Shown here in pieces: positions 1-19,539 of a stretch of 64,000 bases of DNA. Both the position numbers and the translations under genes were made by a program. Source of the stretch: an uncultured Ignavibacteriota bacterium (GTDB lineage: Bacteria > Bacteroidota > Ignavibacteria > UBA10030 > UBA8401). Below the pieces are notes generated by a model that had not been told where the DNA came from, made no database searches, and saw nothing but the letters and a program-made list of their open reading frames with translations. The stretch is from contig CAISDA010000035.1 in the NCBI GenBank assembly GCA_903884005.1, positions 1 to 64,000 on the forward strand, given 5' to 3'. The stretch's first letter is position 1; every line of letters starts with the position of its first letter.

Positions 1-1750
1 CGCGCGTTTGTTTTTTATACGTGATCGTCAGCGATTCACTGCCGACCTCTGCGTGCGTGAAGGGGCTGTCGAACAGTTTCTGTTTCGAAAGGTCTACGGT
101 CTTCCCGTTCAATTTTCTCGTATCGGGAAACGCAAAAGAAAGCGTGCCGTTCCCGACCGACCGGTACTCGACGCTGACCTTACCCGGCGCCAGTATGGCA
201 GCAGGCTTATGAAGGCGAAGTTCGGCGCAGAACTTTTCGAACGACCCCGCTTCATCCTTCGAGCGGACCTCGATGACGTACCCGTTCTGCAGCTTGCGGC
301 TGCGCAGACGGTAATTGTCTTCGTCTTCTTTTTTCTGTGACCATTCGACGGGCTGCAGCGGATACCAGCCGATAAAGGTGTCGCCAGCCTTGCACATGAT
401 CCAGCCCGAGGGATCGATGAGGCGTTGTTCCAGATTCTTCGGGAAAAATCCGTCGATATGCTCTGAGGTCGTTCCCGGTTCTATATCATAGAGCGCGATG
501 AGCGTATTGTTGATCTGGAAGAAGCGTTCGAACGGCGACCCGCCCGTCCATTTGTCCTCGTTGTTATAGGTCGTCTTCGAGCCCGTCACGTCCGAGATCA
601 TGGTTTTCTGTTCTTCGGGAAAAAACGTCGCGAGTTCTTTTCCCGACCAATAGGGATGAAGCCCGAAGATGGTGGAAAACGGCTTGCCATAGGTGTACCG
701 GACTCCCCAGCCATGTATTTGTATCGGCTGCTGGAGGCCGCCATCGAGTGAACCGATACCATAGTCCTTCGTGATGTATGAGATTTTATACACAGGCGGA
801 TTTTTTTCGGTGCCGTAGCGGATCACGTTACGAACGCGCTTGCGTTCCTTGTTCACGAACGGCACGGTGCGGTCGTTGGCGATATTATAGATGATCTTCG
901 GGAGCCGGTATGGCGAGAACGACGAGAACATCGCCCACCCTCCCGTAACCGGATCACCGGTGCCAAAATACAAATATGCAAATCCGGAGAAGCCCGATAA
1001 GAGCGGCTTATACACAGCCGGCTGATAGATGCGGCTGTAGCCGCCGATGTACATGCCGGCAAGGTGATCTGCGGCGGCATCGGCATAGAGGTAATCCAGC
1101 ATCATCGACCCGCGCTTCTTCATCTCCGGATCCTGCGCAAACTGCGTGATCAGCGTCATGGAAATGGCGTATTCGGGGAAGTAATCGGGCGAATCGAACT
1201 CGCCCTGACCGATGGTTGTCGCGATCTTCATCCAATGGATGAGATACTCTTTTGCTTCGTTCCTGTTTTCATCGGACGATTTTCCGTTGAACCATTCCGA
1301 TCCGGGAAGATTCGGCCATTGTTCCGCGGCAAGAAAGAGCGAACTGTAATACATCGCCCAATGATTTTCCGTGTCGCCGCGATACGGAGCGTACGTCTTC
1401 CACACGTTTCGGACGGCAGCCTTCACCTCCGGCGACATGAGATCTTTTCCGTTGAGGTATGTTCCGATCACCGGGAACATCCAGAACATGTCGCCCTTCG
1501 GATTTTGGATCTGGTCCGAATACAGAAACAAACTGTCGGCTTTCTTAAGATCTTTCTTCATCGCATACCGGTATGCTGCTCCGTTGATGCCGGCATTGGA
1601 CGCGGTATCCAGATAATTGTTGAGGCGATGAGCGCGCGCTATGTATGCCTGCTCATATTCATCGGATGTCTGCGCAGCAGCCGTCGTCTGCACCAGCGAT
1701 CCAAAAAGAAGAATACATGCGGCCTGAATGAACAATGATGAGTGTTTCAT
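1..1750 (-). CDS. Secreted protein of unknown function, possibly carbohydrate-active (3' end outside window)
   Basis: An open frame runs from an ATG at 1750 to the window edge without a stop (583 codons visible), so the C-terminus is missing. It starts with a Sec signal peptide (MKHSSLF, hydrophobic core, cleavage after TTAAAQ). The first half is rich in Trp, Tyr and helical segments such as EYLIHWMKIATTIGQGEFDS, which suggests an alpha/alpha toroid. The second half looks beta-rich. That two-part layout recalls polysaccharide lyases and heparinase-like proteins, but I recognise no catalytic signature and do not assign a family. It is the last visible gene of the minus-strand locus and follows two BNR-propeller genes. 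Seen: signal peptide and open frame. Inferred: periplasmic or extracellular role on a carbohydrate. Confidence 0.75.
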   Translation of the reverse strand, partial: MKHSSLFIQAACILLFGSLVQTTAAAQTSDEYEQAYIARAHRLNNYLDTASNAGINGAAYRYAMKKDLKKADSLFLYSDQIQNPKGDMFWMFPVIGTYLNGKDLMSPEVKAAVRNVWKTYAPYRGDTENHWAMYYSSLFLAAEQWPNLPGSEWFNGKSSDENRNEAKEYLIHWMKIATTIGQGEFDSPDYFPEYAISMTLITQFAQDPEMKKRGSMMLDYLYADAAADHLAGMYIGGYSRIYQPAVYKPLLSGFSGFAYLYFGTGDPVTGGWAMFSSFSPYRLPKIIYNIANDRTVPFVNKERKRVRNVIRYGTEKNPPVYKISYITKDYGIGSLDGGLQQPIQIHGWGVRYTYGKPFSTIFGLHPYWSGKELATFFPEEQKTMISDVTGSKTTYNNEDKWTGGSPFERFFQINNTLIALYDIEPGTTSEHIDGFFPKNLEQRLIDPSGWIMCKAGDTFIGWYPLQPVEWSQKKEDEDNYRLRSRKLQNGYVIEVRSKDEAGSFEKFCAELRLHKPAAILAPGKVSVEYRSVGNGTLSFAFPDTRKLNGKTVDLSKQKLFDSPFTHAEVGSESLTITYKKQTR

Positions 1751-1834
1751 ATGTCGATATGTCCGTGTCATAATGATATTTGTTTTATCCTCAAAAATAA
1801 ATGCGAATTATTTTTTTCCAGCGTGCATCCAAAT

Positions 1835-2014: not shown

Positions 2015-3028
2015 CTATTTTATGATCTTGATATCCCACACTTGCGCCCCCGGAAGGCCGGCATAGCGCCAATGCATGCCGCCATCATCCGACCGATAGA
2101 CGCCCTCGCAATAGGTGCCCACGTACAAGCGGCCGCTCTCACGAGGATCGACGGCGATGGTGTGTATGTTAAGGTCCTTCAGGCCGTCGTTCATGCGGCG
2201 CCATGACGCTCCGCCGTTGATGGATTTATACACACCCGTCACGAAACCGCCCGCATACATGGTCTCGGGGTGCTGAGGATCGAATGCGATGGCGTAGAAT
2301 GTCGAATGGTCGACACCCGCTTCCATTTTTTTCCATGTCGCACAGGCATCGGAGGAAATATACATGCCGTTGTCTTCGGTTCCCACGACGAAAATATTCG
2401 GACTCACGGGATGCTGTTGTATCGTGAGAATGCCGTGCATGGTGAGCCCGTCCAACTTTTTCCAGGTCACTGCGCCGTCCTCGCTCACGAATGCGCCGTC
2501 GTATGCCGCACAATAGATCCGCTTCTCATTGGAACGATCGACGATGATCTTGGATGTGTATCCGGGTTTGAGTGTTGTCTGGGCGGATTCATTCCACGTT
2601 GTTCCGCCGTCATTGGAGTGCCAGGCGCCGTACGCGCAGGCAAGATAGACGGTGTTCGGATCGGACGGTGCGCTCGTCACATCCAGCACTTCGGTGATAC
2701 GCCAGTCCGTCACCGTGCGCCAGGTGCCTGCGGCCTCATCGATCTTGTGAAGTCCGCTGCCCGATGCCAGGTATTTGATGTTCCCCTTTGTTGCAGGCGT
2801 CACATCCACAGCGAAGCCGCGCGTATGGAGCGGTCCGGTATGCTTCCAGACAGTATCCGCCGATGGATGCTGAAAGAAGACGCCGGCCGGCGGCGTTTGC
2901 GAGCCGACGATGAAGATGCCGGACTTAATCGTGGTCGCATAGACCGTCGATTCCTGTGCGCCGGCGCGTGGAAGGAACAACACAAGTCCGCCGGCAAGAC
3001 TTAGAAGTATTCGGGATATTCGGTTCAT
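2015..3028 (-). CDS. Secreted BNR/Asp-box beta-propeller protein
   Basis: This 337-residue protein is built of BNR (Asp-box) repeats of the S-x-D-x-G-x-x-W type. Examples are SNDGGTTWNES, SEDGAVTWKKL, SINGGASWRRM and SDDGGMHWRY, spaced about 45-50 residues apart. It opens with a signal peptide (MNRISRILLSLAGGLVLF, cleaved after GAQ). The frame extends upstream to 3202, but the ATG at 3028 is chosen because it begins the signal peptide and avoids overlap with the preceding gene, which ends at 3051. Such propellers occur in sialidases, sortilins and Ycf48-like assembly factors. No sialidase catalytic residues are evident, so a binding or scaffolding role outside the cytoplasm is inferred. It is a paralogue of its neighbour. 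Confidence 0.85.
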   Translation of the reverse strand: MNRISRILLSLAGGLVLFLPRAGAQESTVYATTIKSGIFIVGSQTPPAGVFFQHPSADTVWKHTGPLHTRGFAVDVTPATKGNIKYLASGSGLHKIDEAAGTWRTVTDWRITEVLDVTSAPSDPNTVYLACAYGAWHSNDGGTTWNESAQTTLKPGYTSKIIVDRSNEKRIYCAAYDGAFVSEDGAVTWKKLDGLTMHGILTIQQHPVSPNIFVVGTEDNGMYISSDACATWKKMEAGVDHSTFYAIAFDPQHPETMYAGGFVTGVYKSINGGASWRRMNDGLKDLNIHTIAVDPRESGRLYVGTYCEGVYRSDDGGMHWRYAGLPGAQVWDIKIIK

Positions 3029-3050
3029 TGTGTGTCTGCTGTCTCCTTGT

Positions 3051-4091
3051 TCATGGATAAAATGCAACCTGCATGATCTGTGTACCTGGAAGTCCGGTAA
3101 ATTTCCATGTGATGCCGCCGTCCATTGATTCGAACAGGCCTTCGCCGTGGCTTCCGATGTAGATGTGATTGGCGTCTTCAGGATGCACACAGAGAGAAGC
3201 AATCTCTTCGATGTTCAATGCATCCGATACGTGCTTCCACGAGCGGCCGTCATCCGTACTTTTCCACACTCCCGTTTTGTAGCCTCCGGCAAAGATATTT
3301 TTTCCGTCACCCGACGACGCAAACGCCAGGATGTTCGATCCCTCTGTTCCTGCCGCCGTGCCCCAGGTTTTTCCGCCGTTGCGGCTGACGCGTATGCCTT
3401 CGTCTTCCGTTCCCGCAAAAAGCACTGAGCGGTCACGAAGGTGTTGGAAGATGGAGCGAACTTCTTTCGCGCCCACGTGCAGAGGCGTCCACAGACTTCC
3501 CCGGTTCGTCGATGCGTAGATGTCATCCTCTCCTGCCGCATAGAGATGCGACGGATCCTTCCGGTCGATGGCCATGCGCTCCACGAACCATTTTTTCATT
3601 CCGCGGGTGGCTTCCTGCCACGTCGCTCCGTCGTCCGCGGAACGGAAAATTCCGAACGGAGTGGTGATATACAGCGTTGTTGGCGTCACCGGATCGACGA
3701 CGACGGAAAGGACTTCCATCGTTTTCCAATTGGTGAGCATGCGCCACGATGCGCCGTCATTTTCCGTACGAAATAGTCCGTTGCCTCCGCACACATAATA
3801 GCGGCGCGCTGCACGATTCTGCGAAAATCCAACGCCGAACGAGAGCGTGTTCGTGTTCGGCACCACGGTCCATGCCGTATCGCCTTCGGGACGCACGAAC
3901 GCCCCGACGCGCCTCTGCATGCCGACGCTGTTGTTCACCTGGCCGGAGAACACTGCGGCGAAAAATTTCAACCGGGACGAATGCAATCCCGGCGCATCGG
4001 ATGCACGCACGGATTGAGCCGGCGCGGATTGAGCCGGCGCGGAGTGGGTGATGACACAGAGACAGATGATATGTGCGAATATATTTTTCAT
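3051..4091 (-). CDS. Secreted BNR/Asp-box beta-propeller protein (paralogue)
   Basis: This 346-residue protein is homologous to the next gene downstream along its whole length. It has a signal peptide and repeats such as TENDGASWRM, SADDGATWQE, STNRGSLWTP, SRNGGKTWGT, STDDGRSWKH and SMDGGITWKF. The gap to its paralogue is 22 bp, so they are surely co-transcribed. Both end in a similar GLPG(A/T)Q segment followed by a short strand, so a tandem gene duplication is likely. The signal-peptidase region carries a duplicated SAPAQ unit. No T9SS sorting domain or enzyme motif is visible. Function unknown; extracellular or periplasmic binding is inferred from the fold. Confidence 0.85.
   Translation of the reverse strand: MKNIFAHIICLCVITHSAPAQSAPAQSVRASDAPGLHSSRLKFFAAVFSGQVNNSVGMQRRVGAFVRPEGDTAWTVVPNTNTLSFGVGFSQNRAARRYYVCGGNGLFRTENDGASWRMLTNWKTMEVLSVVVDPVTPTTLYITTPFGIFRSADDGATWQEATRGMKKWFVERMAIDRKDPSHLYAAGEDDIYASTNRGSLWTPLHVGAKEVRSIFQHLRDRSVLFAGTEDEGIRVSRNGGKTWGTAAGTEGSNILAFASSGDGKNIFAGGYKTGVWKSTDDGRSWKHVSDALNIEEIASLCVHPEDANHIYIGSHGEGLFESMDGGITWKFTGLPGTQIMQVAFYP
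4011..4040. repeat. Perfect 15-bp tandem duplication within a signal-peptide coding region
   Basis: The unit ggattgagccggcgc occurs twice in succession (4011-4025 and 4026-4040). It encodes SAPAQ twice on the minus strand, directly at the predicted signal-peptidase site of the BNR protein. Confidence 0.9.
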
Positions 4092-4185: not shown

Positions 4186-5187
4186 TCATATGTCCATCAA
4201 CTCGACGGCTGCGTTCGTGCGCACCGATTGCATCATTGCTTCGACCACCGCAAGCGCATGGATGCCCTCGGCGATGCCCGTTTCGGAACGCGACCCTGTA
4301 AGGATGCAATCGCCAAACTCTTTCATCTGAAGGTTGTAACTGTCCGTGCCTTCATTCGGGAAACCTTCCGTCTCTGAAATTTTTTGATTCCCATCCACAA
4401 TCGTTGTCAATTCATACGAAAGCGGATGGCAGTGCAGTATGCCGTTGGTCCCGTAGATGCGGAAGAAAAATGAATCGGGCGTGATATAATACGAGGACAA
4501 TGAAATTGGAAAGCCCTCCTGCGTCCGGAGAATTGAGGCCGATACGTCCAGCACGCCTTCGGGCATCGCCAATGTGGATGCGACGCAATACACGCTTCGG
4601 ACGGATGAGAACAGATACCGCACCACATCGACAAAATGAATGCCCAACTGCGTCATGGGCAGCAGCGGACATTTTGCCGGGTCGAATTTCCAGCCCGGGA
4701 CCTCACTCGTTAGTCCCACGGGACGCGAAATGTTTGCTTCTACACCGACGATCTTGCCAAGTTTTCCGGCATCAATGAGTTTTTTAGCGGCGCGGAAGAC
4801 ATTACGCCGCCGGGTATTATGCCCGACCATGACGACCTGTGTGACGGCCGATGCGATATCGCGTATTTCCAGCGCCTCGGCGACGGTGTTGGTGATCGGC
4901 TTCTCGACAAAAACATGCTTGCCGATGGCCAGCGCCTGTTTGATCTGGCCCACATGCAGGTGGTTTGGCGTCACAAGCGCCACGGCTTCAATCGCAGGAT
5001 CGTTAATGAGGTCCTCGTACGACGACGCGGCGCGCGCGCCCGTCTGGACTGCGGCAGCCCGGCACGCTTCAACGTTGATGTCGTAGCAGCCCTTCAATTC
5101 GAGCGTGCCGCAATCGCGTATCGCATTCAGGATCGTGCGTCCATGATTGGCGACGCCGGCAATTCCTATTTGTATTTTTCGGGACAT
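4186..5187 (-). CDS. Gfo/Idh/MocA-family NAD(P)-dependent oxidoreductase
   Basis: This 333-residue protein has an N-terminal Rossmann fold (KIQIGIAGVANHG), the family hallmark EKPITNT near residue 95, and a C-terminal alpha/beta dimerisation domain. Family members oxidise or reduce hydroxyl groups of sugars, inositols or sugar nucleotides with NAD(P). It has no signal peptide, so it is cytoplasmic. It sits 30 bp downstream of the OYE-type flavoenzyme and a few genes from a TIM-barrel sugar isomerase and two glycosidase-like proteins. Oxidation of a sugar or glycoside carbon is the likely role (inference). A second, unrelated-context family member is at 40715-41713. Substrate cannot be read from sequence. 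Confidence 0.9.
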   Translation of the reverse strand: MSRKIQIGIAGVANHGRTILNAIRDCGTLELKGCYDINVEACRAAAVQTGARAASSYEDLINDPAIEAVALVTPNHLHVGQIKQALAIGKHVFVEKPITNTVAEALEIRDIASAVTQVVMVGHNTRRRNVFRAAKKLIDAGKLGKIVGVEANISRPVGLTSEVPGWKFDPAKCPLLPMTQLGIHFVDVVRYLFSSVRSVYCVASTLAMPEGVLDVSASILRTQEGFPISLSSYYITPDSFFFRIYGTNGILHCHPLSYELTTIVDGNQKISETEGFPNEGTDSYNLQMKEFGDCILTGSRSETGIAEGIHALAVVEAMMQSVRTNAAVELMDI

Positions 5188-5217
5188 GGCATTAAAAAAT
5201 TTGTGGACTGAATGCTG

Positions 5218-6660
5218 TTATGTCTTGCCTTCGGCTTTTCGTTTTGCAAGCACATCTTTATAGATCGGAACGTACGCGTCGTCCCGTGGAACGCAGCCCG
5301 ACGGATATTGGCCGAGCTCGTTGTTTTTCGAACGCATCAGGTTCGTGCAGTAACTGATCGCGATGCAGACCTGAGACGGATTCAATGCGCCTTTGGCGAT
5401 GACATCGGCGGCGAAATCGGGATATGCAATTGCGCCGCGGCCGACGGCAACGATGGAAACGCGTTTGCGCCGCAAATTTGATTCGCCGGCACTGATGAAA
5501 TATTTTTGGAGCCAGCTGTATCCTGTGCCGACAACAGCGAGATCGGGAAAGGTCCGCTGAATTTTTTCTGTTGCGGCAAAGTGCCGGGCAACACCCAACA
5601 GCGGGTGCTCGGGGGTTTCATACCCCTCGAACGGTTTTTTCTCGAAAGGCCGTCCGTAGTGCATATTGTAGTAGGGGCTGCCCACCGATACGTTCACAAG
5701 GTGCACACCGAGCCCGCGCATCATTGCGATAAGCGCAATCGGTTCCGTCAGGTCCTCTCGAAGCGGGTCGTTCACATCGACGCCGAAATTGTATTGATAT
5801 GGTGTATCAAAAGGAATGGGACGGCCGGCTCCGCTCACAGGATCGAGTTCGAAGGGAACGCCGTCGTAGACATTCAGCCGCGACGCCGCCTGGAACGGGC
5901 TACCGACCTCGGATTTAATTTTCGAAAGTATATTGCGGATCATTCGCGTACGATTCTCGAAGCTGCCTCCATACTTGCCTTCGCGAGTGCGCGCGCCGAG
6001 CAGTTCATTGAGCAGGTACGTGTGGCATTGCTTGATATCGACAAAATCGAATCCAACTTTCGCCGCACGCTTTGCCGCTTCAACATACGCGTCTTCCAAT
6101 TGTTCGAGGTAGTCGTCCGTGACGAGCGGATAGGAAGCATCAACACACACCCCCTTCGCCTTGTCCACATAGGTAACACCGTCTGCCTGGGGATGGTGAT
6201 AAGCGATCATCGGAGCACGATAGCTCCATCGTCCCGAGTGCGTCAATTGCAGTCCGATCATGAGATCGCTGTCCGTGCCGTACCGTTCGCAATGAGCGGT
6301 GCGTGTGATTTTCACGAGACGCTCAAAGTCGGGGAGATTCGCTTCATTGAGCAGAAGCTGGCGTGAATTGGCAAGTCCCTCGGGAACGACGGCCGTCGCT
6401 TCACCCCAGATGAGTTTCGCTCCCCCGTCGCCGAAACGCTTCCATCGCCGGTATGTCAATTCCCCCGGCTTTCCGTCTATGGTGCCGTCGCATCCTTCCA
6501 TCGGATGAATGCCCATGGCATTGCCGATGGTTCGCGGGCCGATGCGGACAGGCTGAAAAACGGCATCGAGTTTTTCGTCGAACGAAATATCGACACCGAG
6601 ATGTGCGACGTCTGCGCGCAAGTCATCGATCGATTTATACGTAAAATATTTATCGGGCAT
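5218..6660 (-). CDS. Old yellow enzyme-type NADH:flavin oxidoreductase
   Basis: This 480-residue FMN TIM-barrel protein has the family signature QLTHSGRW at about residues 139-146 and the YGGSFENR motif near 230-237, preceded by the FVDIKQCHTYLLNEL element. Such enzymes reduce activated C=C bonds using NAD(P)H. It is longer than plain OYEs (350-400 residues) and lacks the second half of 2,4-dienoyl-CoA reductases. Near its C-terminus the cysteines (CIAISYC, then C about 17 residues on) do not match the usual four-cysteine iron-sulphur motif, so a cluster is doubtful. The ATG at 6660 is preferred over an upstream in-frame start at 6690 because GGAG lies 9 bases before it. It is co-directional with the Gfo/Idh gene, 30 bp away. 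Confidence 0.88.
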   Translation of the reverse strand: MPDKYFTYKSIDDLRADVAHLGVDISFDEKLDAVFQPVRIGPRTIGNAMGIHPMEGCDGTIDGKPGELTYRRWKRFGDGGAKLIWGEATAVVPEGLANSRQLLLNEANLPDFERLVKITRTAHCERYGTDSDLMIGLQLTHSGRWSYRAPMIAYHHPQADGVTYVDKAKGVCVDASYPLVTDDYLEQLEDAYVEAAKRAAKVGFDFVDIKQCHTYLLNELLGARTREGKYGGSFENRTRMIRNILSKIKSEVGSPFQAASRLNVYDGVPFELDPVSGAGRPIPFDTPYQYNFGVDVNDPLREDLTEPIALIAMMRGLGVHLVNVSVGSPYYNMHYGRPFEKKPFEGYETPEHPLLGVARHFAATEKIQRTFPDLAVVGTGYSWLQKYFISAGESNLRRKRVSIVAVGRGAIAYPDFAADVIAKGALNPSQVCIAISYCTNLMRSKNNELGQYPSGCVPRDDAYVPIYKDVLAKRKAEGKT

Positions 6661-6759
6661 AGCAAAAATCTCCAGGATGCCGAAAACCATCGTTTCGGCA
6701 TGCAGTGCGCGCCGAAAATTTACAACTATTCCTACAGAGTGAAAAATAAAATCAAGAGC

Positions 6760-6779
6760 GGGCGAGATACCATCTAGCC
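6760..6779 (+). repeat. Family A hairpin repeat, degenerate copy A2
   Basis: gggcgagataccatctagcc retains the left arm and loop, but the right arm has a C-to-A change. It lies just downstream of the stop of the Tat-exported glycosidase-like gene. Confidence 0.6.
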
Positions 6780-6780
6780 T

Positions 6781-9057
6781 CTACACGAACATTTCGATCG
6801 ATCGCGCGCTCACGGGAAACGCCAGCGTCAGTGTTCCATCTTTCAGCGGCGTCTTTGTGCCATCGACGAGCGCGTACGTGTCCTTTGCCGCTCTGCGCAC
6901 CGTGATGCCGATCACAGCGCCGTGCACCGGAATCACCGCATCGAGTGCGTCGATGCCTTTAAATAATTTGGGACGAAGCACGAGTTGCGTCGGCGATGGC
7001 CGAACGCCGAGCACGTGATGCATGAAGAACATGACGATCTCAGCCCAGGTCCAGACAACGATACCCACCGGTGGCAGAGGCGGCACGGGACGGTCGCCGT
7101 AAAATTCAAGCCACGCTCCGGATGCGCCTCCCTTGACTGCCCCGAGCCACTCCAATGCCCGGACAACCTGCTCGTCGTTCCCGGCTTCGAGTGAAGCCCG
7201 GGCGATGAACATCGTCGCAAACGGCCAGGGCCCCGGCGAATCGCCTTCGGAGCTGACGTGGTATCTGCCGTATCCACCAATGGTCCACTGCTGATTCCAC
7301 AACAGTTCCATCGACTTCAGGGTATTCGCCGCCAGCGTGCCCTTCGGATCGACCATATCGAGCACGATGGGAAGCACACTGGCACTGTCCGGATCGCAGT
7401 AGGAAACCGTTTCCACATTCAGCGGCATGCCCGGGGGCATGGACTTTCGGTTCTTCGGCTCGAACGTAAACTGCGGCGTGCCGTCGGCATTGCGCCGCTT
7501 AATGAAACGGTTCTCGTGAACGAGCGACAATATCGGATGCGAAAGGAACGACGACTTCATGAGCGCGGACGCGCCTCGCCACCGCTGTGCACTCTCGGAC
7601 TCTTTCATCGCATCGGCGATCTCTGCGGCTTTTCCGAGTCCGATGATGTTCCACATCTGATAGGTCAGTTCGTACCCGTCCTTCACGCCGAAACTCGCAT
7701 CGCGTTCCCAGTACTCGCGTGAATTTTTCAGGAGACCGATGGCAGGATCGCGATAGACGGGCTTCAGTACATAGTCCGCAAGGAGTTGAATTTTTTTCCA
7801 GTATTCACGGATGAGCGCGTCGCTGCCCGTCCACGCCCAGTGTATCCAGAGTGCGTACAGGAGTTCGCCGTTTTGGTCCAGTTCCATTGTTTCGGGAGGA
7901 CGCGTGCGGCTGGCATCGACCGTGCCGCCCTGGTCGTCGATGGAGTGCGTCAGGATCCGGCGCAGCAACGATTCGGCAATATCCGCCCGCCCCATCATGG
8001 CGCACGCTGAGGCCACCATGCTTTGATCGCGCACCCATTCCAGATTGTACTGCCAGATGCCGCCGTCCATTTTTCCGGAACGAGCAACTGCGGCCCTGAG
8101 GGATGATTGGGAGACACGGAATAAATGATCATATAATTCGTTCTTCGTGTGAAGCTGTGCGGCAGAGGACCAGTATGCGGTCGTTTCCTTCCTCAATTCT
8201 TCAATCGGCGTTTTTTGAAATTCCTCGCGTGTGCGGCCGATGGTGAGCACGATGGTCATGGTGACCGAAGCGCCTGGTGCCATCTCTCCACAATCGAAAT
8301 ACAACTGCCTGTCGCCGATGCGTGTCGTATCGGGAGAGAACATGTACATATCCGTAAATCCATTTGCGCTCAATGTCTTGTGCGTTCTGTCGACGGTATA
8401 TTCGTCGAAGAGCATCAGGTTCGGATAGAGCGAACAATAAGCGAGCACTTTTGCCGGCGCATTCGATGTGTTGCGTATGGCGACAGTCCGCACAAGCGCA
8501 GGCTCATTGATGGGGCAGTAGAGTTCCTCGCGGACGGCACATGCATCGGCGTGCCACTCGATCACAACGGTCGGGATCGATTCGGGATATGCCCAGGAGA
8601 CCTTCGATGTGCCCGGCTTGGGCGTATACCCCGAGCTATTGACCACGACATTGAAGAGGGAATTTTGAAGGCCGCGCTCGGGATGAAAAAGAAACGTGCT
8701 CGCTTTCCGTCCGAAATGTTCGGGAGACATGAGCAGCAGTCCGCACTGCGTACCGGTATCGGCCGATTGCGTCGTCTGCAGTGCGGCAGTGATGAGCCCG
8801 TTGCCGAGGAAATAGTATTCGGTGCCGTCGTTGTTGGATTGGAAATCGGCGTTCATTTTTTGGTCGTGCGGAACCCGGGGATATGCAGTGGTACCACTCG
8901 CCGGTGGCTCCTTTGTGGCAGGCGTTCCATTTCCAGACTGCACCGCATCGGCGGCGGCTATTTGCCCGGCATTCATCAAATTCAATGGCAGACCGGCTGC
9001 CGCCGCGGCGGCGGCCGAATATTTTAAAAAATCCCGGCGGCGAAAAGAAGAATCCAT
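6781..9057 (-). CDS. Tat-exported six-hairpin glycosidase-like protein
   Basis: This 758-residue protein begins with a clear twin-arginine signal (FRRRDFLKYS, then an alanine-rich core and AAADA), so it is exported folded. A beta-sandwich N-terminal region is followed by an alpha/alpha-toroid with segments such as WQYNLEWVRDQSMVA and ELDQNGELLYALWIHWAWTG. These resemble glucoamylase (GH15)-like and glycogen-debranching-type catalytic domains. The WVRDQ and ELDQNGE segments could hold the acidic catalytic residues (inference). A short beta domain ends the protein. AAGG sits 7 bases before the ATG. It is encoded between the sugar isomerase and the OYE gene, which fits periplasmic processing of a glycoside. 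The exact GH family and substrate are not determinable by eye. Confidence 0.82.
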   Translation of the reverse strand: MDSSFRRRDFLKYSAAAAAAAGLPLNLMNAGQIAAADAVQSGNGTPATKEPPASGTTAYPRVPHDQKMNADFQSNNDGTEYYFLGNGLITAALQTTQSADTGTQCGLLLMSPEHFGRKASTFLFHPERGLQNSLFNVVVNSSGYTPKPGTSKVSWAYPESIPTVVIEWHADACAVREELYCPINEPALVRTVAIRNTSNAPAKVLAYCSLYPNLMLFDEYTVDRTHKTLSANGFTDMYMFSPDTTRIGDRQLYFDCGEMAPGASVTMTIVLTIGRTREEFQKTPIEELRKETTAYWSSAAQLHTKNELYDHLFRVSQSSLRAAVARSGKMDGGIWQYNLEWVRDQSMVASACAMMGRADIAESLLRRILTHSIDDQGGTVDASRTRPPETMELDQNGELLYALWIHWAWTGSDALIREYWKKIQLLADYVLKPVYRDPAIGLLKNSREYWERDASFGVKDGYELTYQMWNIIGLGKAAEIADAMKESESAQRWRGASALMKSSFLSHPILSLVHENRFIKRRNADGTPQFTFEPKNRKSMPPGMPLNVETVSYCDPDSASVLPIVLDMVDPKGTLAANTLKSMELLWNQQWTIGGYGRYHVSSEGDSPGPWPFATMFIARASLEAGNDEQVVRALEWLGAVKGGASGAWLEFYGDRPVPPLPPVGIVVWTWAEIVMFFMHHVLGVRPSPTQLVLRPKLFKGIDALDAVIPVHGAVIGITVRRAAKDTYALVDGTKTPLKDGTLTLAFPVSARSIEMFV

Positions 9058-9097
9058 AGGGCCTTCTGATTGCTATGAATGAATTATAATGGATGTG

Positions 9098-9913
9098 TTA
9101 GTGCGATGAAAGCACTTCTTCCATATACGTTCTGAGTGTGCGAATATTGTATTCGGACTGTTGGATCAACGGAAGGCAATGCGTCTCGATGGTGAGATGT
9201 GAGACGATGTTGTCTTCGAGAAGCGCGCGCACCTGTTCTTTCCACGCGATCTTGCCCTGCCCGACCGGCACGCACCGAAGAAGCGATCCTTCGATCGTGT
9301 CCTTCACATGCACGTTGGCGATGTAGGGTTTGAGCGCCTTGTATCCGTTCGGATACGGCACCTCATCGGTGCCCAAGGCGTTTGCCGGATCCCAGTTGGC
9401 GCGGAGATGGATCGAATTGATCTCTTTCAATATTGCGGCGGTGTTCGTGCCCGTGTCGCACCAGAATCCCGGCTCGTTTTCAATGGCAATGACCACATTA
9501 TGGCGTTCGGCGATATCGGCCGCGCGGCGGAAGTATCCGACGGCGCAGCGGCGCAGCGAGTCGTCGTCCTGCGCAAGTCGCTTGAACCCGAAGGCAATGA
9601 TGACCCTGGTGCCGAAGCGAAGCGCCATGTCGATCGTTCGCGGCAGCAGCTCGTTCAATTCCTGTTCTATTGCTGCGGCATCGGACAATGGATGCTTGAA
9701 GATGCCGGGAGAAAGAGCGGTGATACGGATGCCTTCGGTCAGCACGGCACGGTCGATGAAGGCAGCGTCTTCGTCGGTGATAAGCGGCACCCTTCCACCG
9801 CCGACGCAGCGAAGTTCGAACAGCGAAATGCCCCACTCTTTTCCGTACCGCAATGCGGTTTCAAAGTCGGGCGCGATTTCATCAGAGACTATGCCGAGAG
9901 GAAGAGAGTCCAT
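9098..9913 (-). CDS. Sugar phosphate isomerase/epimerase-type TIM-barrel protein
   Basis: This 271-residue protein belongs to the xylose-isomerase-like TIM-barrel superfamily. Recognisable metal-site strands are VVIAIENEPG (Glu), LRANWDPANA (Asp), YIANVHVKD (His) and LTIETHC (Glu). Members isomerise, epimerise, dehydrate or cleave keto-sugars; the IolE/IolI and 3-keto-glycoside-processing enzymes belong here. It has no signal peptide and is 40 bp upstream of the Tat glycosidase-like gene, clearly the same operon. Together with the Gfo/Idh dehydrogenase and OYE it suggests a redox-assisted sugar pathway (inference). No strong Shine-Dalgarno precedes the ATG. Confidence 0.85.
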   Translation of the reverse strand: MDSLPLGIVSDEIAPDFETALRYGKEWGISLFELRCVGGGRVPLITDEDAAFIDRAVLTEGIRITALSPGIFKHPLSDAAAIEQELNELLPRTIDMALRFGTRVIIAFGFKRLAQDDDSLRRCAVGYFRRAADIAERHNVVIAIENEPGFWCDTGTNTAAILKEINSIHLRANWDPANALGTDEVPYPNGYKALKPYIANVHVKDTIEGSLLRCVPVGQGKIAWKEQVRALLEDNIVSHLTIETHCLPLIQQSEYNIRTLRTYMEEVLSSH

Positions 9914-10938: not shown

Positions 10939-12834
10939 TCAGTGCCCCTGCGTCTCGCCGCGCCGTTCGGACCGCTTTCCATACAGCCACATGAAACTTC
11001 CGAATGAGATCAAAATGCCGGCCATCACACCCACGGCGATCGATTCACCGGTTGTCATCGTGTTCAGGAATGAGAAACAGACGAGTATGCCAAGAAAAAT
11101 CATCGTTCTGCCGACAACAGGAAGCGTTGACACCTGTTTGCGCCCGCCGACGAACACTTCTTTTGCCATATCTACAGGCGTATCGATCTTCTTGAAAAAT
11201 TCTTTGACGATGCGTTTATCATCTTCCGTCTCCAATGCGAAGAAGCGGGCGAACCAATACAAACTGGCTCCAAGCGCAACCGCGTTAACATAGGCAAAAA
11301 TTTTCTGCCACTCGGCCACATCATTCATGACGAAGGATGAAAAGAAATATCCCATCGAGGCTGTGATAGCGATGCAAATGAGAACGAGCGCCGTTTTATT
11401 TTCCAAATATAATTTTCCCGTCCATTGAGACGTGCTGAAGATCGCAAACGTCATGACGAACGAAAGATAGACCTGCGGTCCAATGTCCCAGCCGAGCACG
11501 TAGCGTGCAGTGGCGCCGACAATGAGTCCCCATGTGATAGCGCCGACGGCCGACCATTTCGGCACGCGGCGGAAGATCAGGCCGAATGCGATCGGGACAG
11601 TGACGGGAATGTTAAAGAGTGTGAAGAATGCCTGCATCAGATTGAAGATGCCGAATTTGCTGTTCAGGAAGAAGATCGCGAGCCCCATCACCGTAAGCCC
11701 GATGGTGACGGCGGCCATGCGGCCCACCTTGAGCAGATCCTTGTCGCTCAGGTTCGGCCGGAACATGCCCTGGTAAATGTCGCGAGAGAAAATGGACGAG
11801 ATCATGTTATAGACGGTGCTCAGCGTCGTCATTGTTGCGGCCATCATTGCCGCAATGAACACGCCGATAAGGCCGTGCGGGAGCAGCTTCAGCACCAATC
11901 CGACAAAGACGAGGTCCTGCGGATTTTTCCCCACAAAGGGTTTGAAAAAATCTTCGACCGAAAGATCGGGCCAATAGATCTTTGCCACCAGGGGCGGTAT
12001 GCCGAAGACAAACGGGATCGTCAACGCAAAAAAGGCGGCAACCTTGCCGACGCGTTTCGCCTCTTTTTCATTCTTCACAGAATAAAATTTCGGGGCGGCG
12101 CCTGCGGCAAAGCCAATCGTTGTGATGAGCAGGATGGACAGGAGCCAGTGTTCGGTATAATGCACTCCATTATACGTATGATCGAACGTCAGCGGCGGCA
12201 GCGCATGCCAGAGATTGCCGAAGCCGCCGATCAGGTTGACGCTCATCGGCATGACGATGAAGGTGATGCCGAGCAGCACGACTCCCTGCACCACATCCAT
12301 TGCCATGTCGCCCCATAAACCGCCGAGCAGATTATGGATGAGCACGATGGTACCGATGATCAGGACGATCGCGGTGATGTTGATGCCGATGATCGGCGAA
12401 AAGAGCTTGCATGTGGAGGCGAGTTGAACACCCGCCGAGAGAATAAAATTGATCGAGATGACCCAGCTCATGAATTGCTGCGTCGTGATATTGTACCGTG
12501 TCAGCGTATACTCAACCGGAGAGATCGACCGAGTGCGCCGCCATTTCGAGGCAGTCATGCTCGACCCGGCGAGGTAGGCGATCGGGGAAATGCAGAAATA
12601 GAGAATGGTGAACAATCCGGTGCTGTAGGCGAAACCTGCAGCCCCGGTAAAGATCCACGCACTGAAATTGCCCATATACAGAGACATTCCGGACATCCAC
12701 CAGGGAATCATGCTTCCGCCGGTGAAATATTCCTTCCCGCCCTTGTTGACGCGCATGAAATACAGGCCTATTCCCATGATGATGAGAAAATAGGTGAAGA
12801 TAATGAGCATGTCGAAATAATTGACCGATTTCAT
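10939..12834 (-). CDS. Sodium:solute symporter family (SSS) transporter
   Basis: This 631-residue membrane protein has about 14-15 predicted transmembrane helices and SSS features such as KEYFTGGSMIPWWMSGMSLYM in TM1-loop-TM2 and the MAATMTTLSTVYNMISSIFSRDIY segment. SSS proteins import sugars, organic acids or similar solutes with Na+. The frame continues upstream to 13005, inside the neighbouring symporter gene. The ATG at 12834 is chosen because it starts the first helix region and follows an A-rich GGAAA sequence. It is paralogous to the gene immediately upstream. The long C-terminal loop before the last helices is typical of the sugar/uronate-type members in Bacteroidota. Substrate unknown; presumably a sugar released by the locus's glycosidases. 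Confidence 0.92.
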   Translation of the reverse strand: MKSVNYFDMLIIFTYFLIIMGIGLYFMRVNKGGKEYFTGGSMIPWWMSGMSLYMGNFSAWIFTGAAGFAYSTGLFTILYFCISPIAYLAGSSMTASKWRRTRSISPVEYTLTRYNITTQQFMSWVISINFILSAGVQLASTCKLFSPIIGINITAIVLIIGTIVLIHNLLGGLWGDMAMDVVQGVVLLGITFIVMPMSVNLIGGFGNLWHALPPLTFDHTYNGVHYTEHWLLSILLITTIGFAAGAAPKFYSVKNEKEAKRVGKVAAFFALTIPFVFGIPPLVAKIYWPDLSVEDFFKPFVGKNPQDLVFVGLVLKLLPHGLIGVFIAAMMAATMTTLSTVYNMISSIFSRDIYQGMFRPNLSDKDLLKVGRMAAVTIGLTVMGLAIFFLNSKFGIFNLMQAFFTLFNIPVTVPIAFGLIFRRVPKWSAVGAITWGLIVGATARYVLGWDIGPQVYLSFVMTFAIFSTSQWTGKLYLENKTALVLICIAITASMGYFFSSFVMNDVAEWQKIFAYVNAVALGASLYWFARFFALETEDDKRIVKEFFKKIDTPVDMAKEVFVGGRKQVSTLPVVGRTMIFLGILVCFSFLNTMTTGESIAVGVMAGILISFGSFMWLYGKRSERRGETQGH

Positions 12835-12916
12835 TTCTCGACGTTTCCTTTTTGATAAATGATCTGAATAACCAACGCACAGTGCTTCGCAGTGTGCGGA
12901 GGCGTACCTTCCTCTA

Positions 12917-14803
12917 TTATAAATTTGTTTCGGCTGTGATCCGTCGCCCCGCCGCCCAGAGGACGGCACCGAAAGCGACCATGATGAAGACGAGCACGCC
13001 GACAATAAGCTTGTCTCTCATGGATGTATTGGTGAAGAAAATGAGGCTCATGAGCGCGCCCATGATCATTGTTGTCCCCCCCACCAACGGCAGCGTGGCG
13101 ATCGGCCGTTTGCCTGCTCCGTATACTTCCTTCATCACGTCCACAGGAGTGGCAAGTTTTCTGAAGAACACGGCGACGATTTCTGTTTCTTCAACACTCT
13201 GCTGCGAGAACAGCTTCGAGAAGCCGAAGAGCGTGCCGCCGAAGGCCGCGGCGCTGAGCACCATGACCGGGTACTGCCACGACTGCACGCTTCCCTGTAC
13301 GGTTGCCACATAGAATGATTCCACCATGGCCGCAAGCAATCCGGAAAGAAAGGCGAGCGCGTTGGGTCTTGTACGGTAGAGGCGTGAAAGCCACGGCGAA
13401 GCGGCAAAAATGACGAATGCCATCGTTGTCGAAAAATATCCCTGCACACCGAGATCCCAGTTGAGCAGGAACTTTGCTGTTGCGCCTGCAATGAGTCCCC
13501 ACGTGATCGCAGCGGCGGCCGACCATCGCGGCACTTTCTTCATGATCAATCCGAACGCGAGCGGGATCGAGATGGGGATGTTGAAGAGCACGAAGAACTG
13601 CTGCATGAGGTTGAATATGCCGTACGTGCTCGTCACAAACATGAACGCGAGTGCAGTGACAACGGCACCGACGCCGATCGATGCGAAACGGCCGATGTGG
13701 AGGAGCTCAGTATCATTCATCTCCCTGCCCCGTGCCCACTGATAGATATCGCGAGAGAAGATGGACGAGAGCATGTTGTACACGGCGCTGAGCGTGCTCA
13801 TGGTCGCCGCGAGCATGGCTGCGATGAACACGCCGAGGAGACCGTTCGGCAGTAGCTTCATACAGAGCGCAACGTAGACAAGGTTCTGCGGATTGTTGCC
13901 GAGGTACGGCTTGAAAAATTCAACCTGCGTAAGGTCGGGCCAAAGCACACGCGTGACGAGCATGGGTATGCCGAAAATCGCAATGGAACTGAATCCGAGC
14001 AGCGCCGCGAAGCGACCCGTGCGCTTTGCATCGCGTTCGTCCTTAACGGAGTAGAACCGCTGCGCGGCTCCGCCGGCGAATCCGATGGTCGTAATGACAA
14101 AGACCGAAATGATCCAGTGAACGTCGTAATGGACTCCGTTGTAAATGTGGCTCAGCGACAGCGGGGGCAGTTTGTCCACCAGAGCGCCGAATCCACCGAT
14201 GAGCCCGAGGCTGAGCGGGAGCACAATGATCGTGATGCTTAAGAGGATCACGCCCTGCACGACGTCGGTCACGGAAACGGCCCACACGCCGCCGAGAAAC
14301 GTATAGAGGAGGATGATGATGCCGAGCACGACGACGATCGTCCGGACGTCGATGCCGAAAAATGGTGAGAGCAGGATGCATGTGGAGGCGAGCTGCACGC
14401 CGCCGGCAAGGATATAACTTGTGGACGTGACCCAACTGATCATTTGCTGCGTCGTCACATTGAAGCGGGTGTAGGTATATTCAACCGGAGAGATCGACCG
14501 CGTCCGCCGCCACAGTACAGCGGTCATCTGCGTGCCGAACAGGTATGCGAACGGCCCGATCAAGAACGACACCAGCATGAACCAGCCGGTCGTGTATGTC
14601 ATGCCGGCAAGACCGGTGAATGTGTATGCGCTGAAATTCGCCATGTAGAGCGTCATCCCGGACATCCACCACGGGATCATGCTACCGCCGGCAAAGTATT
14701 CCTTGCCGCCCTTGTTGACGCGCATGAAGTACCAGCCGATGCCGAGCATGAACACGAAATATGCCAACACAATGAGAATGTCGAATATGTTGAGCGTGTG
14801 CAT
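12917..14803 (-). CDS. Sodium:solute symporter family (SSS) transporter (paralogue)
   Basis: This 628-residue paralogue of the next gene is strikingly similar in TM1-3 (MRVNKGGKEYFAGGSMIPWWMSGM) and around the RRTRSISPVEYT and SIFSRDIYQ segments. It has the same predicted helix count and C-terminal tail. The 82-bp gap and shared direction imply co-transcription. Two symporters in tandem suggest import of two related products, or divergence after duplication. The ATG at 14803 has no obvious Shine-Dalgarno, which is common in this group. Confidence 0.92.
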   Translation of the reverse strand: MHTLNIFDILIVLAYFVFMLGIGWYFMRVNKGGKEYFAGGSMIPWWMSGMTLYMANFSAYTFTGLAGMTYTTGWFMLVSFLIGPFAYLFGTQMTAVLWRRTRSISPVEYTYTRFNVTTQQMISWVTSTSYILAGGVQLASTCILLSPFFGIDVRTIVVVLGIIILLYTFLGGVWAVSVTDVVQGVILLSITIIVLPLSLGLIGGFGALVDKLPPLSLSHIYNGVHYDVHWIISVFVITTIGFAGGAAQRFYSVKDERDAKRTGRFAALLGFSSIAIFGIPMLVTRVLWPDLTQVEFFKPYLGNNPQNLVYVALCMKLLPNGLLGVFIAAMLAATMSTLSAVYNMLSSIFSRDIYQWARGREMNDTELLHIGRFASIGVGAVVTALAFMFVTSTYGIFNLMQQFFVLFNIPISIPLAFGLIMKKVPRWSAAAAITWGLIAGATAKFLLNWDLGVQGYFSTTMAFVIFAASPWLSRLYRTRPNALAFLSGLLAAMVESFYVATVQGSVQSWQYPVMVLSAAAFGGTLFGFSKLFSQQSVEETEIVAVFFRKLATPVDVMKEVYGAGKRPIATLPLVGGTTMIMGALMSLIFFTNTSMRDKLIVGVLVFIMVAFGAVLWAAGRRITAETNL

Positions 14804-14997: not shown

Positions 14998-16299
14998 TCA
15001 CGCACCGACGGAGCGGACAGCCTCGAGGATGCGCGCCACATCGTCGAATGAATTATAACAGTGGAGCGAGAGCCGCAGCGCTGCCATTCCCCCCTCGTTC
15101 ACAATACGAGTGCGCAGATTAAATTTGGTGAGGTGCTCCTGCAGCGCCATATTATCGCATGCCGCATGGTTGATGGTGATCATTGCGCTGCGCATTGCCG
15201 GGTTTTCAGATGAAAGGACTCCGACGCCTTTAATCGTCCGCAGGCCGTCGAACAACGTCGTCGCCAGCGCAAGGTCATGGTTTGCGATGTTATCGATGCC
15301 GATCGTGCGTATAAATTTAAATGCTGCGCCGAGCCCGGCGCGAAGCGGAACGCTCACCGTCCCGTATTCATAGCGCTGAGCGGACGAATGGGGCGTCAGT
15401 TCGCCCTTATCGATATCGAAGATGTTGGCCGAATATGCGCCGATGAACCGGGGCCGAACAGTATCGAGCATGGCTGCGCGCACATAGAGAAGCCCGGTCT
15501 CTTTCGGACCCATGAGCCATTTATGTCCGCTTGTGGCATACGCGTCGCAACCGATATCGTGCAGATTCACATGCAGCATGCCGCCGGACTGGGCGCCGTC
15601 CACAAGGAAGAAAATATTTTTTGCCCTCGCGATCGCGGCGATCTCCTTCACCGGAAGGATCAAGCCGGTCGTTGTGACGATATGAGGGATACTGATGAGT
15701 TTCGTGCGCGGTGTGATAAGCTTTGTAAGGCTGTCGATGTTGGCCTGTGCAGAGACGATGGAAGGTTCGAAGCGTTTGATGACAATTCCGTCGTTTTTCT
15801 GCAGGCCGACCCATGTCATGGCATTGCCGACATGCTCGTGCGTGGTGAGGATAACCTCGTCACCCCGCTCCAACCTGACGCCATGAGCGATGATATTAAT
15901 GCCCTCCGTGGTGTTGCGCGTGAAGGCAAGCTCGTCCGCATCGCATCCTAAGAGTGCAGCCCCTTCCGTCTTAATTTCCTTCAATATCTGTTCATTGTGG
16001 CCCGTTTCGCATGTCTTTTCGAGCTCGTCCATCTTGGCTTTCACCGCGTCGATCACCGCATACGGAGAGGCACCGAGGCCGCCGGTATTCAGATAGATGC
16101 GTTCGGTGGTAAGAGGAAACTGAGTGCGCACGATGTTCCAATAACGGACATCGTCCGGCGCAATGGGACCGGCCGATGGGGTGATTGCCGAGGGCGATTG
16201 TGCTGCCGCGAGGCCGCCGGCAAACAGTGAGATCGGTGAGAGCATCTGGGCGGCGCCGATGGCGCCGGCGGATGCGATGAAAAATTTTCTGCGTTCCAT
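14998..16299 (-). CDS. Exported class V aminotransferase (cysteine desulfurase/isopenicillin-N-epimerase-like)
   Basis: This 433-residue PLP fold-type I enzyme contains TRNTTEGINIIAHG (cofactor phosphate binding), LVDGAQSGG (Asp pairing with the pyridine nitrogen) and TSGHKWLMGPKETG (Schiff-base Lys). The N-terminus MERRKFFIASAGAIGAAQ is a Tat-like signal with an AAAQ cleavage site, so the enzyme is probably exported after folding with cofactor. Related Tat-exported isopenicillin-N-epimerase-like proteins are known, but physiological substrates are mostly undefined. It is placed between a cytoplasmic glycosidase-like gene and the symporters. Role in the locus is unknown; an amino sugar or amino acid derivative is conceivable. 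Confidence 0.87.
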   Translation of the reverse strand: MERRKFFIASAGAIGAAQMLSPISLFAGGLAAAQSPSAITPSAGPIAPDDVRYWNIVRTQFPLTTERIYLNTGGLGASPYAVIDAVKAKMDELEKTCETGHNEQILKEIKTEGAALLGCDADELAFTRNTTEGINIIAHGVRLERGDEVILTTHEHVGNAMTWVGLQKNDGIVIKRFEPSIVSAQANIDSLTKLITPRTKLISIPHIVTTTGLILPVKEIAAIARAKNIFFLVDGAQSGGMLHVNLHDIGCDAYATSGHKWLMGPKETGLLYVRAAMLDTVRPRFIGAYSANIFDIDKGELTPHSSAQRYEYGTVSVPLRAGLGAAFKFIRTIGIDNIANHDLALATTLFDGLRTIKGVGVLSSENPAMRSAMITINHAACDNMALQEHLTKFNLRTRIVNEGGMAALRLSLHCYNSFDDVARILEAVRSVGA

Positions 16300-16668: not shown

Positions 16669-18246
16669 TTAATAGTGAACGAGCACGGATGCGTTCTTTT
16701 TCACGGTGAACGACGAGTTCACGTATGGGCTTTGTTCGATCTTTTCATTTTTATGCGCGACAGCTTTTCCGTTCACGAGCACTTTTTTTGCCCTCATGCC
16801 GTTTGGCAGCAGCAGATGGAGCGCAACGGCTGCCGTACCGGCGATGTCCATGGCGATAGTTCGCTTCACAGGGTCGTGGACAAATGAATATTCGATCGAC
16901 GCGCCCGACGCGCCGTAGGCAGCGCACGCACTCGCCTCGTTGCATCCGGCCGCAAGCCACCGCGGCGATATCCTCACGCTCGTATAGAGCTTGTGCTGGT
17001 CCACGATGCCCGCGAGGCCTTCCATCAGCGCATAGAGCATGGCGGACGATCCCCATCCATCCGTGGGCGACGAATCGGGGCTGGTGCTGGTTTCAAGTGT
17101 CGCATGTTCTCCGTTGGGAAAATACCAGAGATACGATTCTTCCGAACGCGTGAGTTCTTCATACTTCAGCAGTTGTTCCACCGCGTACGATTCGAAACCG
17201 TGTTCGAACGCCGCGCGGGCGATCTCTCCGCCCACCAGCGGCATGATGCCGCCGTTGCAGTACATCCCCTTCACGATCTTCTCATCGCCCCAGATCCCGT
17301 CGGGAAACGGAGGATCGATGCTGAACCATTCGGCGAATGTATCGACGTCCCTCCCCCGCTTTTGGTACTCTTTCAATATGGACACAGCGATCGCGTGAGT
17401 GGCCATGCCGCGGTTGATGTCCATGGGATTGCTGAGGCTCAGTTGGCTCGACTCGTCGACGCCCTTCACCGTAACAGGAGTGCGTTTCACGAAATGCGTA
17501 TAAAATGTTCCGTTGAAGCAGAGTTTGTTCGCACGCCGCCGCAGGTCTTCAGCTTCTTTTTTCCAATACTCCGCACGTGGTGTGTTCTTGCAGTGGGCAT
17601 ACAGCGCGCTCAACTGAAGGAACGCCTCGTAATAGCCGGAATTGTCGCCATGCATGATCCCCCAGAATGTATGGGGAGTGATCTGAAAATTGAGCCACGG
17701 ATGCCGACCTGCAGTGTAATCGAAGTCCCACGTGTCCATCGTATACGCGCGCTTCACGAGTTTCACGGCGGCGTCCCAGCGCCAGGCGTCGGTCATGATA
17801 TACTGAAGGGCCTTTTCCATGTGCGGCAGCAGGCTCTTCACCCACGCGTCGTCGCCGGTGGCCTGCCACGCCATATAGGCGGCCTTGACGAAACGGAATT
17901 CAACATCGGCCTCGACGGGCACGCGGACATACTTTGCCCAGTTCTCTTTTTCGCACGGGACCTTTTCGGGCGTCATCGTAAAATAATCGAAGATCCATCC
18001 GCGGGCGGTCTGCGTTTCGGCAAAGTGGTCCACGGTGGACTTCATATCGGTTTCCCAGTACCGGAAGCCGCGCATCATATCCGAATAGTCGCGTATCCAG
18101 ATACTCGGGGCATCGGGAGAGCGGTAGCCGCGCACCTGCCTGCCGAACATATTATAGTCCGTCGTATCGTGTGAAAGAAATTTTTTAATCCGCGGGACGA
18201 GGACGTTGAGGCGGTCGTTACTGCAGGTGATATATGTGTGCTTCAT
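16669..18246 (-). CDS. Cytoplasmic six-hairpin glycosidase-like protein
   Basis: This 525-residue protein has no signal peptide. The bulk looks like an alpha/alpha-toroid of glycosidase type, with aromatic and acidic motifs such as APSIWIRDYSDMMRGFRYWE (N-terminal), TWDFDYTAGRHPW and NPMDINRGMATHA (centre), and DGWGSSAMLYALMEGLAGI near the end. The final 80 residues form a small beta domain. This layout is shared by GH15/GH63/GH78/GH94-like families; I cannot choose one. Being cytoplasmic, it would act on an imported glycoside, in contrast to the Tat-exported paralogue-like protein at 6781. It is encoded between the MetE-like gene and the aminotransferase. Confidence 0.78.
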   Translation of the reverse strand: MKHTYITCSNDRLNVLVPRIKKFLSHDTTDYNMFGRQVRGYRSPDAPSIWIRDYSDMMRGFRYWETDMKSTVDHFAETQTARGWIFDYFTMTPEKVPCEKENWAKYVRVPVEADVEFRFVKAAYMAWQATGDDAWVKSLLPHMEKALQYIMTDAWRWDAAVKLVKRAYTMDTWDFDYTAGRHPWLNFQITPHTFWGIMHGDNSGYYEAFLQLSALYAHCKNTPRAEYWKKEAEDLRRRANKLCFNGTFYTHFVKRTPVTVKGVDESSQLSLSNPMDINRGMATHAIAVSILKEYQKRGRDVDTFAEWFSIDPPFPDGIWGDEKIVKGMYCNGGIMPLVGGEIARAAFEHGFESYAVEQLLKYEELTRSEESYLWYFPNGEHATLETSTSPDSSPTDGWGSSAMLYALMEGLAGIVDQHKLYTSVRISPRWLAAGCNEASACAAYGASGASIEYSFVHDPVKRTIAMDIAGTAAVALHLLLPNGMRAKKVLVNGKAVAHKNEKIEQSPYVNSSFTVKKNASVLVHY

Positions 18247-19396: not shown

Positions 19397-19455
19397 TGCG
19401 GACTCCTGATGGGGCACACGATACAACACAGCGTGGACATCCAATACCTCTATGC

Positions 19456-19515
19456 AAATACAAAGGGGGCGGATAAGCAGTATCGCAACAATACTATGCT
19501 GCTTATCCAGCCCCC
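19456..19515 (-). terminator. Rho-independent terminator after the PorV-like gene
   Basis: A strong inverted repeat (ggggg-c-ggataagc against gcttatcc-a-gccccc, with inner agtat/atact pairing) spans 19465-19515. On the minus strand it is followed by TTTGTATTT (19464-19456). It separates the receptor/PorV operon from the MetE-like gene, 24 bp after the PorV stop. Confidence 0.75.
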
Positions 19516-19539
19516 CTACAACCATTTTACGAAATCACA

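Follow-up and report, generated by a model that had tools for sequence, protein, structure and literature searches.

The window analyzed here, a stretch of 64,000 nucleotides from the 4.5-Mb genome of an uncultured Ignavibacteriota bacterium, carries four contiguous genes on one strand, encoding a Gfo/Idh/MocA sugar dehydrogenase, an Old Yellow Enzyme (OYE)-like flavoenzyme, a Tat-exported glycosidase-like protein and a xylose-isomerase-like TIM barrel. The original prediction had named these families, and both their identity and their contiguity are borne out by the ORF list, Pfam and NCBIfam. Its estimate of 30–40 bp gaps at most junctions was a fair one, the ORF list giving 30, 90 and 40 bp in the order dehydrogenase, OYE, glycosidase, barrel. 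On the same strand, an IclR regulator and two sodium:solute symporters (SSS) lie upstream, and two beta-propeller proteins and one secreted protein lie downstream. The features are as follows:

1..1771, minus strand, secreted protein without characterization; 45% identity to a related locus (L034 16645-18522)
2015..3202, minus strand, second BNR/sortilin-like protein; PF15902 66.4 bits; listed start overlaps the neighboring gene
3051..4091, minus strand, BNR/sortilin-like beta-propeller protein; PF15902 74.6 bits; recurs in related loci
4186..5187, minus strand, Gfo/Idh/MocA sugar dehydrogenase, 333 aa; PF01408 83.6 bits, PF02894 67.9 bits
5218..6690, minus strand, OYE-like flavoenzyme, 490 aa; PF00724 86 bits; likely start 6660
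6781..9057, minus strand, GH15-like (alpha/alpha)6 glycosidase-like protein with Tat signal; PF10518 TAT_signal 27.3 bits
9098..9913, minus strand, xylose-isomerase-like TIM barrel, 271 aa; PF01261 99.7 bits
10058..10837, minus strand, IclR-family regulator, first in the conserved block; PF01614 134.6 bits, PF09339 53 bits; beside the TIM gene in relatives
10939..13005, minus strand, sodium:solute symporter 2 (SSS); PF00474 131 bits
12917..14803, minus strand, sodium:solute symporter 1 (SSS); PF00474 141 bits

The two symporters are 53% identical to each other; the listed start of symporter 2 overlaps its neighbor, and MKSVNYF is the likelier start. The secreted protein is a relative of a 625-aa protein that recurs in related loci. 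Promoter and terminator scans gave scores at the level of shuffled sequence, and a PHROGs search returned a match to an entry without assigned function.

Several other genes of the window deserve mention. A protein resembling class-V aminotransferases and cysteine desulfurases, whose N-terminus looks exported (14998-16299), recurs just ahead of the SSS symporter in several related loci (L132, L142, L156, L157). It is followed by a 525-aa protein (16669-18246) with no Pfam match, which resembles another helical-barrel glycosidase and is 57% identical to a protein of the Kryptonia version of the locus (L140 7494-9107), and, still close to the operon, by a stand-alone MetE-type catalytic-domain protein (Meth_synt_2, 18374-19525), a relative of which (31% identical, L041 4208-5215) directly precedes the OYE gene in L041 (G100). 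Further on, two tandem ABC-permease-like genes of equal length (31762-33036 and 33065-34339) have nearly identical N-termini (MQVQESFVMAVTAIKANKLRS), looking like a recent duplication.

Active sites of the four enzymes

The dehydrogenase has the Gfo/Idh/MocA Rossmann domain with the EKP lysine and the GIHxxD motif. Residues K96, H184 and D187 are invariant in 20 sequences, and the best PDB matches are 3db2 and 1,5-anhydrofructose reductase.

The exported glycosidase matches TIGR01577 (46.9 bits) and PF17389 (19.1 bits), both under the curated cut-offs, for which reason membership of GH15 or GH78 was rejected. Given that TIGR01577 falls far below its cut-off and that no protein of the genome matches PF00723 at E 0.001, the enzyme is described as GH15-like, not GH15; a PDB search with it found only a weak dextran dextrinase profile match. 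Residues E451 and E651 are invariant wherever the sequence is complete and, by reading of the GH15 acid/base motifs, are the candidate catalytic pair of what appears to be a clan GH-L-type enzyme. With such a complete GH15-like pair of glutamates, ordinary hydrolysis would suffice to cut the glycosidic bond and no redox help would be required. A second, diverged copy of the glycosidase (∼37% identical) lies elsewhere in the same genome (G000:C2:62206-64479; L165 10195-12477), where it has no OYE, TIM or Gfo/Idh neighbors.

The TIM barrel was modeled with a pLDDT of 95. Its structural neighbors are Art22 (Z 29.2), UlaE (27.6), AsbF (26.6) and AtHYD (25.4), with many isomerases nearby, and Foldseek matches include YcjR and DgpC. 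The model shows the fold and metal-ligand pattern of UlaE/DTE-kind epimerases (Z 26-29), and the predicted structure resembles best the generic sugar epimerases (UlaE, Art22, DTE-like); NCBIfam UlaE-type models score the protein far under cut-off. The metal ligands E145, D175, H202 and E243, located by motif and alignment, are invariant in 37 sequences together with an extra glutamate, E147, so that the barrel has the four-strand metal site of the 3-keto-glycoside beta-eliminases (OGE/CGE). OGE and CGE/DgpBC share its xylose-isomerase-like metal fold, DgpC being the Foldseek match, but in OGE a catalytic histidine, His134, sits two residues past the first metal ligand (PMC10628242). This position is occupied by Glu147 in 37/37 barrel sequences, and the window, unlike those systems, includes an OYE. 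For want of the histidine, the barrel was rejected as a C- or O-glycoside eliminase. The CGDB beta subunit of CGE/DgpBC (PF19906) had no match in the genome, nor in any control genome. An ordinary epimerase barrel had been named as the outcome that would count against the original prediction, and in part this is what emerged, with an epimerase-like fold and a glutamate in place of the eliminase histidine; the outcome is not decisive because the barrel also lies near AsbF and AtHYD, a keto-glucal hydratase.

The OYE-like protein probably starts at 6660 (5218-6660), since its relatives begin at MPDKYF. The PF00724 match is confined to residues 44-278, and the predicted fold spans the whole barrel (pTM 0.82; Z about 37 against OYEs over residues 40-437), so that Pfam and the model together indicate an FMN-binding TIM barrel along the full length. 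In 69 sequences of the subfamily, Lys220-x-x-His223, Tyr225, Q148, R271, E65 and the C-terminal cysteines C442, C448 and C466 are invariant. HPMEGCD and CT[ND]LMR served as search patterns for the relatives, and the conservation of E65, C67 and C448 is therefore partly built in; K220, H223, Y225, C442 and C466 lie outside the patterns. Alignment with XenA places Q148 and R271 at flavin contacts, Y225 at the proton donor Y183, Lys220 at the first of two substrate-holding histidines and Glu65 at the position of Cys25. The classical His-His/Asn substrate pair is thus altered in all 69 sequences. As the second histidine and the tyrosine are kept and the first histidine is replaced, the protein is named a member of the OYE superfamily and not a classical ene-reductase.

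XenA/YqjM-type OYEs have in common with it the FMN barrel, the Q/R flavin contacts and the proton-donor tyrosine; it differs from them by Lys220, Glu65 and a C-terminal three-cysteine motif, at 20-25% identity. In 2,4-dienoyl-CoA reductase and 2-naphthoyl-CoA reductase, a cysteine-containing C-terminal segment aligns behind the barrel, to residue 481, whereas the window protein, at 490 aa, has three cysteines rather than four and no NAD/FAD domain. C442, C448 and C466 coincide in position with the iron-sulfur ligands of dienoyl-CoA reductase, in a stretch modeled with low confidence, and may hold an Fe-S cluster. Sequence comparison assigns the protein to an uncharacterized subfamily that is spread over many phyla.

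Conservation of the operon among relatives

Relatives of the window's genome bear names such as Ignavibacteriales, Bacteroidota and Kryptoniota. In a survey of 150 related genomes, 12 have a full-length OYE relative, the window's own included, 32 have the TIM gene and 24 the Gfo/Idh gene. Of the 12 OYE genomes, 11 also carry the TIM gene (hypergeometric 9e-8, kinship ignored), and in most loci on long enough contigs the genes run in one direction in the order IclR-TIM-GH-OYE-(DUF4432)-GFO. The joint presence of these genes exceeds chance: this is a conserved, real sugar-breakdown operon.

Scanning 84,980 genomes, one set of species representatives, is not implied here; among 84,980 species genomes scanned, 366 relatives of the window OYE were found. 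The best 80 of the 366 loci were surveyed and belong to Ignavibacteria, Kryptonia, Poribacteria, Latescibacterota, Planctomycetes, Acidobacteria and others. OYEs with operon partners form one clade, set off by a branch whose SH-aLRT support is 98, and close TIM, GFO or GH orthologues stand beside an OYE only within it. Outside this clade the neighbors vary, including SDR, GH113-like, FAH-like and MR_MLE-like proteins, the last two labels being our own reading of the sequence starts. Because of this diversity no single substrate follows from the wider family, and an attempt to infer one from its neighbors was rejected. MFS families are the commonest neighbors in the tally, some of them nucleoside H+ symporters; in Planctomycetes and Acidobacteria (L090, L104, L106, L115-L119) an MFS-transporter-sized gene often directly precedes an OYE of the same subfamily.

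The proposal that the genes function jointly is supported by the conserved order, by the single clade of operon OYEs and by catalytic residues that are intact in all four proteins. The recurrence of OYE, Gfo/Idh and barrel in a fixed order was likewise found, but the idea of OYE as a required partner did not hold. DUF4432, an aldose-epimerase-like protein unrelated to OYE, fills the position between glycosidase and Gfo/Idh in many relatives, so OYE cannot be an indispensable third enzyme. Among the 24 Gfo/Idh genomes, eight have OYE only, 11 DUF4432 only, three both (in the order GH-OYE-DUF4432-GFO) and two neither, and in these last two contig breaks adjoin the block. The two proteins tend to avoid each other (Fisher's exact p 0.011, kinship ignored), all 17 DUF4432 genomes are among the 32 TIM genomes, and seven changes are needed to place the OYE, DUF4432 and both states on the TIM tree. 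Either protein can apparently serve some step accompanying the Gfo/Idh enzyme.

In several relatives (L137, L136, L156), the operon is contiguous with an L-rhamnose cluster of RhaI, FGGY kinase and RhaD aldolase-ADH. For example, L137 reads RhaD-type aldolase/dehydrogenase (TIGR02632, 837 bits), FGGY kinase, L-rhamnose isomerase (TIGR02629, 671 bits), LarA, IclR, TIM, DUF4432, GFO and a heparinase II/III-like protein, both NCBIfam scores being over cut-off. TIGR02629 was found in 10 genomes, all within the 32 TIM genomes, and in eight of them the two genes share one contig, a few kb apart. In other relatives the position of the rhamnose genes is taken by LarA together with SDRs, a 2-hydroxyacid dehydrogenase and an acetoacetate-decarboxylase-like protein. 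Two loci (L164 3777-8582, L034 57-4915) have, where others carry the rhamnose isomerase and aldolase, a set of six genes that may make up a different, oxidative route for deoxyhexoses: two encode SDRs, one an acetoacetate-decarboxylase-like protein, one a 2-hydroxyacid dehydrogenase, and the remaining two encode proteins of 264 aa and of 253-259 aa, the latter with no Pfam match. Neither TIGR02629 nor TIGR02632 at full length was matched in the genome of the window. The substrate there may therefore be another one, and the rhamnose pathway was not accepted as the function of the window operon. The classical L-rhamnose pathway has no Gfo/Idh, OYE or DUF4432.

A proposed pathway and its alternatives

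Gene order, families, conservation and intact catalytic residues are observed; from them a sequence of steps and a kind of substrate are proposed here. The favored reading, to which a probability of roughly one-half is given, is a sugar- or glycan-utilization operon that combines hydrolysis, import, oxidation, enolization and an OYE step on a keto-sugar. Outside the cytoplasm, the exported glycosidase would hydrolyze its target and free a sugar, which an SSS symporter would bring in. The Gfo/Idh enzyme, with NAD, would then oxidize a ring hydroxyl, and the metal-dependent barrel would enolize the keto-sugar, whether for epimerization, isomerization or elimination. The OYE would act on an enone- or enediol-type keto-sugar. 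Transfer of a hydride from the flavin is the likeliest chemistry; Lys220 and His223 would hold the carbonyl and Tyr225 would donate the proton. Oxidation, enolization and then enone reduction is a possible sequence. Since DUF4432 occupies the OYE slot in many relatives, there would be more than one way to process the intermediate, and in several relatives the product would pass into L-rhamnose or deoxyhexose catabolism and on to lactate (LarA). A more specific and tentative version, held to be distinctly less probable than the general scheme, makes the Lys/His OYE subfamily a dedicated keto-sugar ene-reductase/isomerase, with DUF4432 as its analogous replacement at the same step.

The E. coli ycj cluster (YcjS, YcjR, YcjQ and the GH65 enzyme YcjT) likewise unites Gfo/Idh, TIM barrel and clan GH-L enzymes, and suggests a pathway without glycosidic elimination, in which Gfo/Idh oxidizes C3, the barrel epimerizes C4 (or C2), a reductase then turns the keto group back into a hydroxyl and OYE or DUF4432 acts on a side step. 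The epimerases and isomerases closest to the barrel in structure (UlaE, Art22), the YcjR match and the epimerase-type metal site with Glu147 in place of the eliminase histidine all argue for this route, which is a serious possibility at somewhat under one chance in three. The block has a single Gfo/Idh gene, though, where ycj has two dehydrogenases, ycj has no OYE and a different glycosidase family, and the non-epimerases AtHYD and AsbF are also close to the barrel. The strict sequence of oxidation, elimination and reduction that was originally put forward for glycosidic cleavage takes its precedent from the levoglucosan and C-glycoside pathways, in which Gfo/Idh and barrel enzymes perform the first two steps (PMC7676230, PMC10628242), and the OYE catalytic residues would suit an enone. 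The clustered Gfo/Idh and sugar-isomerase-like barrels of the Bacillus smithii levoglucosan pathway (LgdA-LgdB1-LgdB2-LgdC) are indeed like the window, but that pathway has two barrels, more than one dehydrogenase and no OYE, and in the known pathways the ketoglycal is hydrated rather than reduced (PMC7676230). With Glu147 at the catalytic histidine, an OYE that can be swapped for DUF4432 and a complete hydrolase within the operon, redox-assisted cleavage as stated is unsupported. The strict sequence is one of several readings, others being better supported, and is judged improbable.

Slightly less probable still is a redox-neutral role, in which the OYE would isomerize a keto-sugar as a proton shuttle and an unrelated epimerase-like DUF4432 could therefore hold the same slot. 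The shared slot and near-exclusive occurrence of the two proteins are consistent with it, and hydride-independent isomerization by OYEs is reported (PMC5574032). Nevertheless, OYE and DUF4432 occur together in three to five genomes, and the OYE retains every FMN-contact position and the proton-donor tyrosine, as expected of a redox enzyme.

Significance

OYEs are widely used biocatalysts, and natural substrates are known for a minority of them. Sets of Gfo/Idh and barrel enzymes are already known from the levoglucosan, C-glycoside and ycj systems. The literature searched held no case of sugar catabolism that pairs an OYE with Gfo/Idh and no keto-sugar ene-reductase/isomerase role for OYEs; neither an operon of this sort that stably includes an altered OYE nor the replacement of that OYE by DUF4432 was found described, and nothing was found on the function of DUF4432. 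The linkage to rhamnose genes suggests that the relatives showing it, at least, feed on glycans that contain deoxyhexoses. The placement of an altered-residue OYE beside a sugar dehydrogenase and a barrel, within one clade, narrows the choice of natural substrate in that clade to keto-sugars, which is directly testable, and the exchange between OYE and DUF4432 provides a first functional handle on the DUF4432 family.
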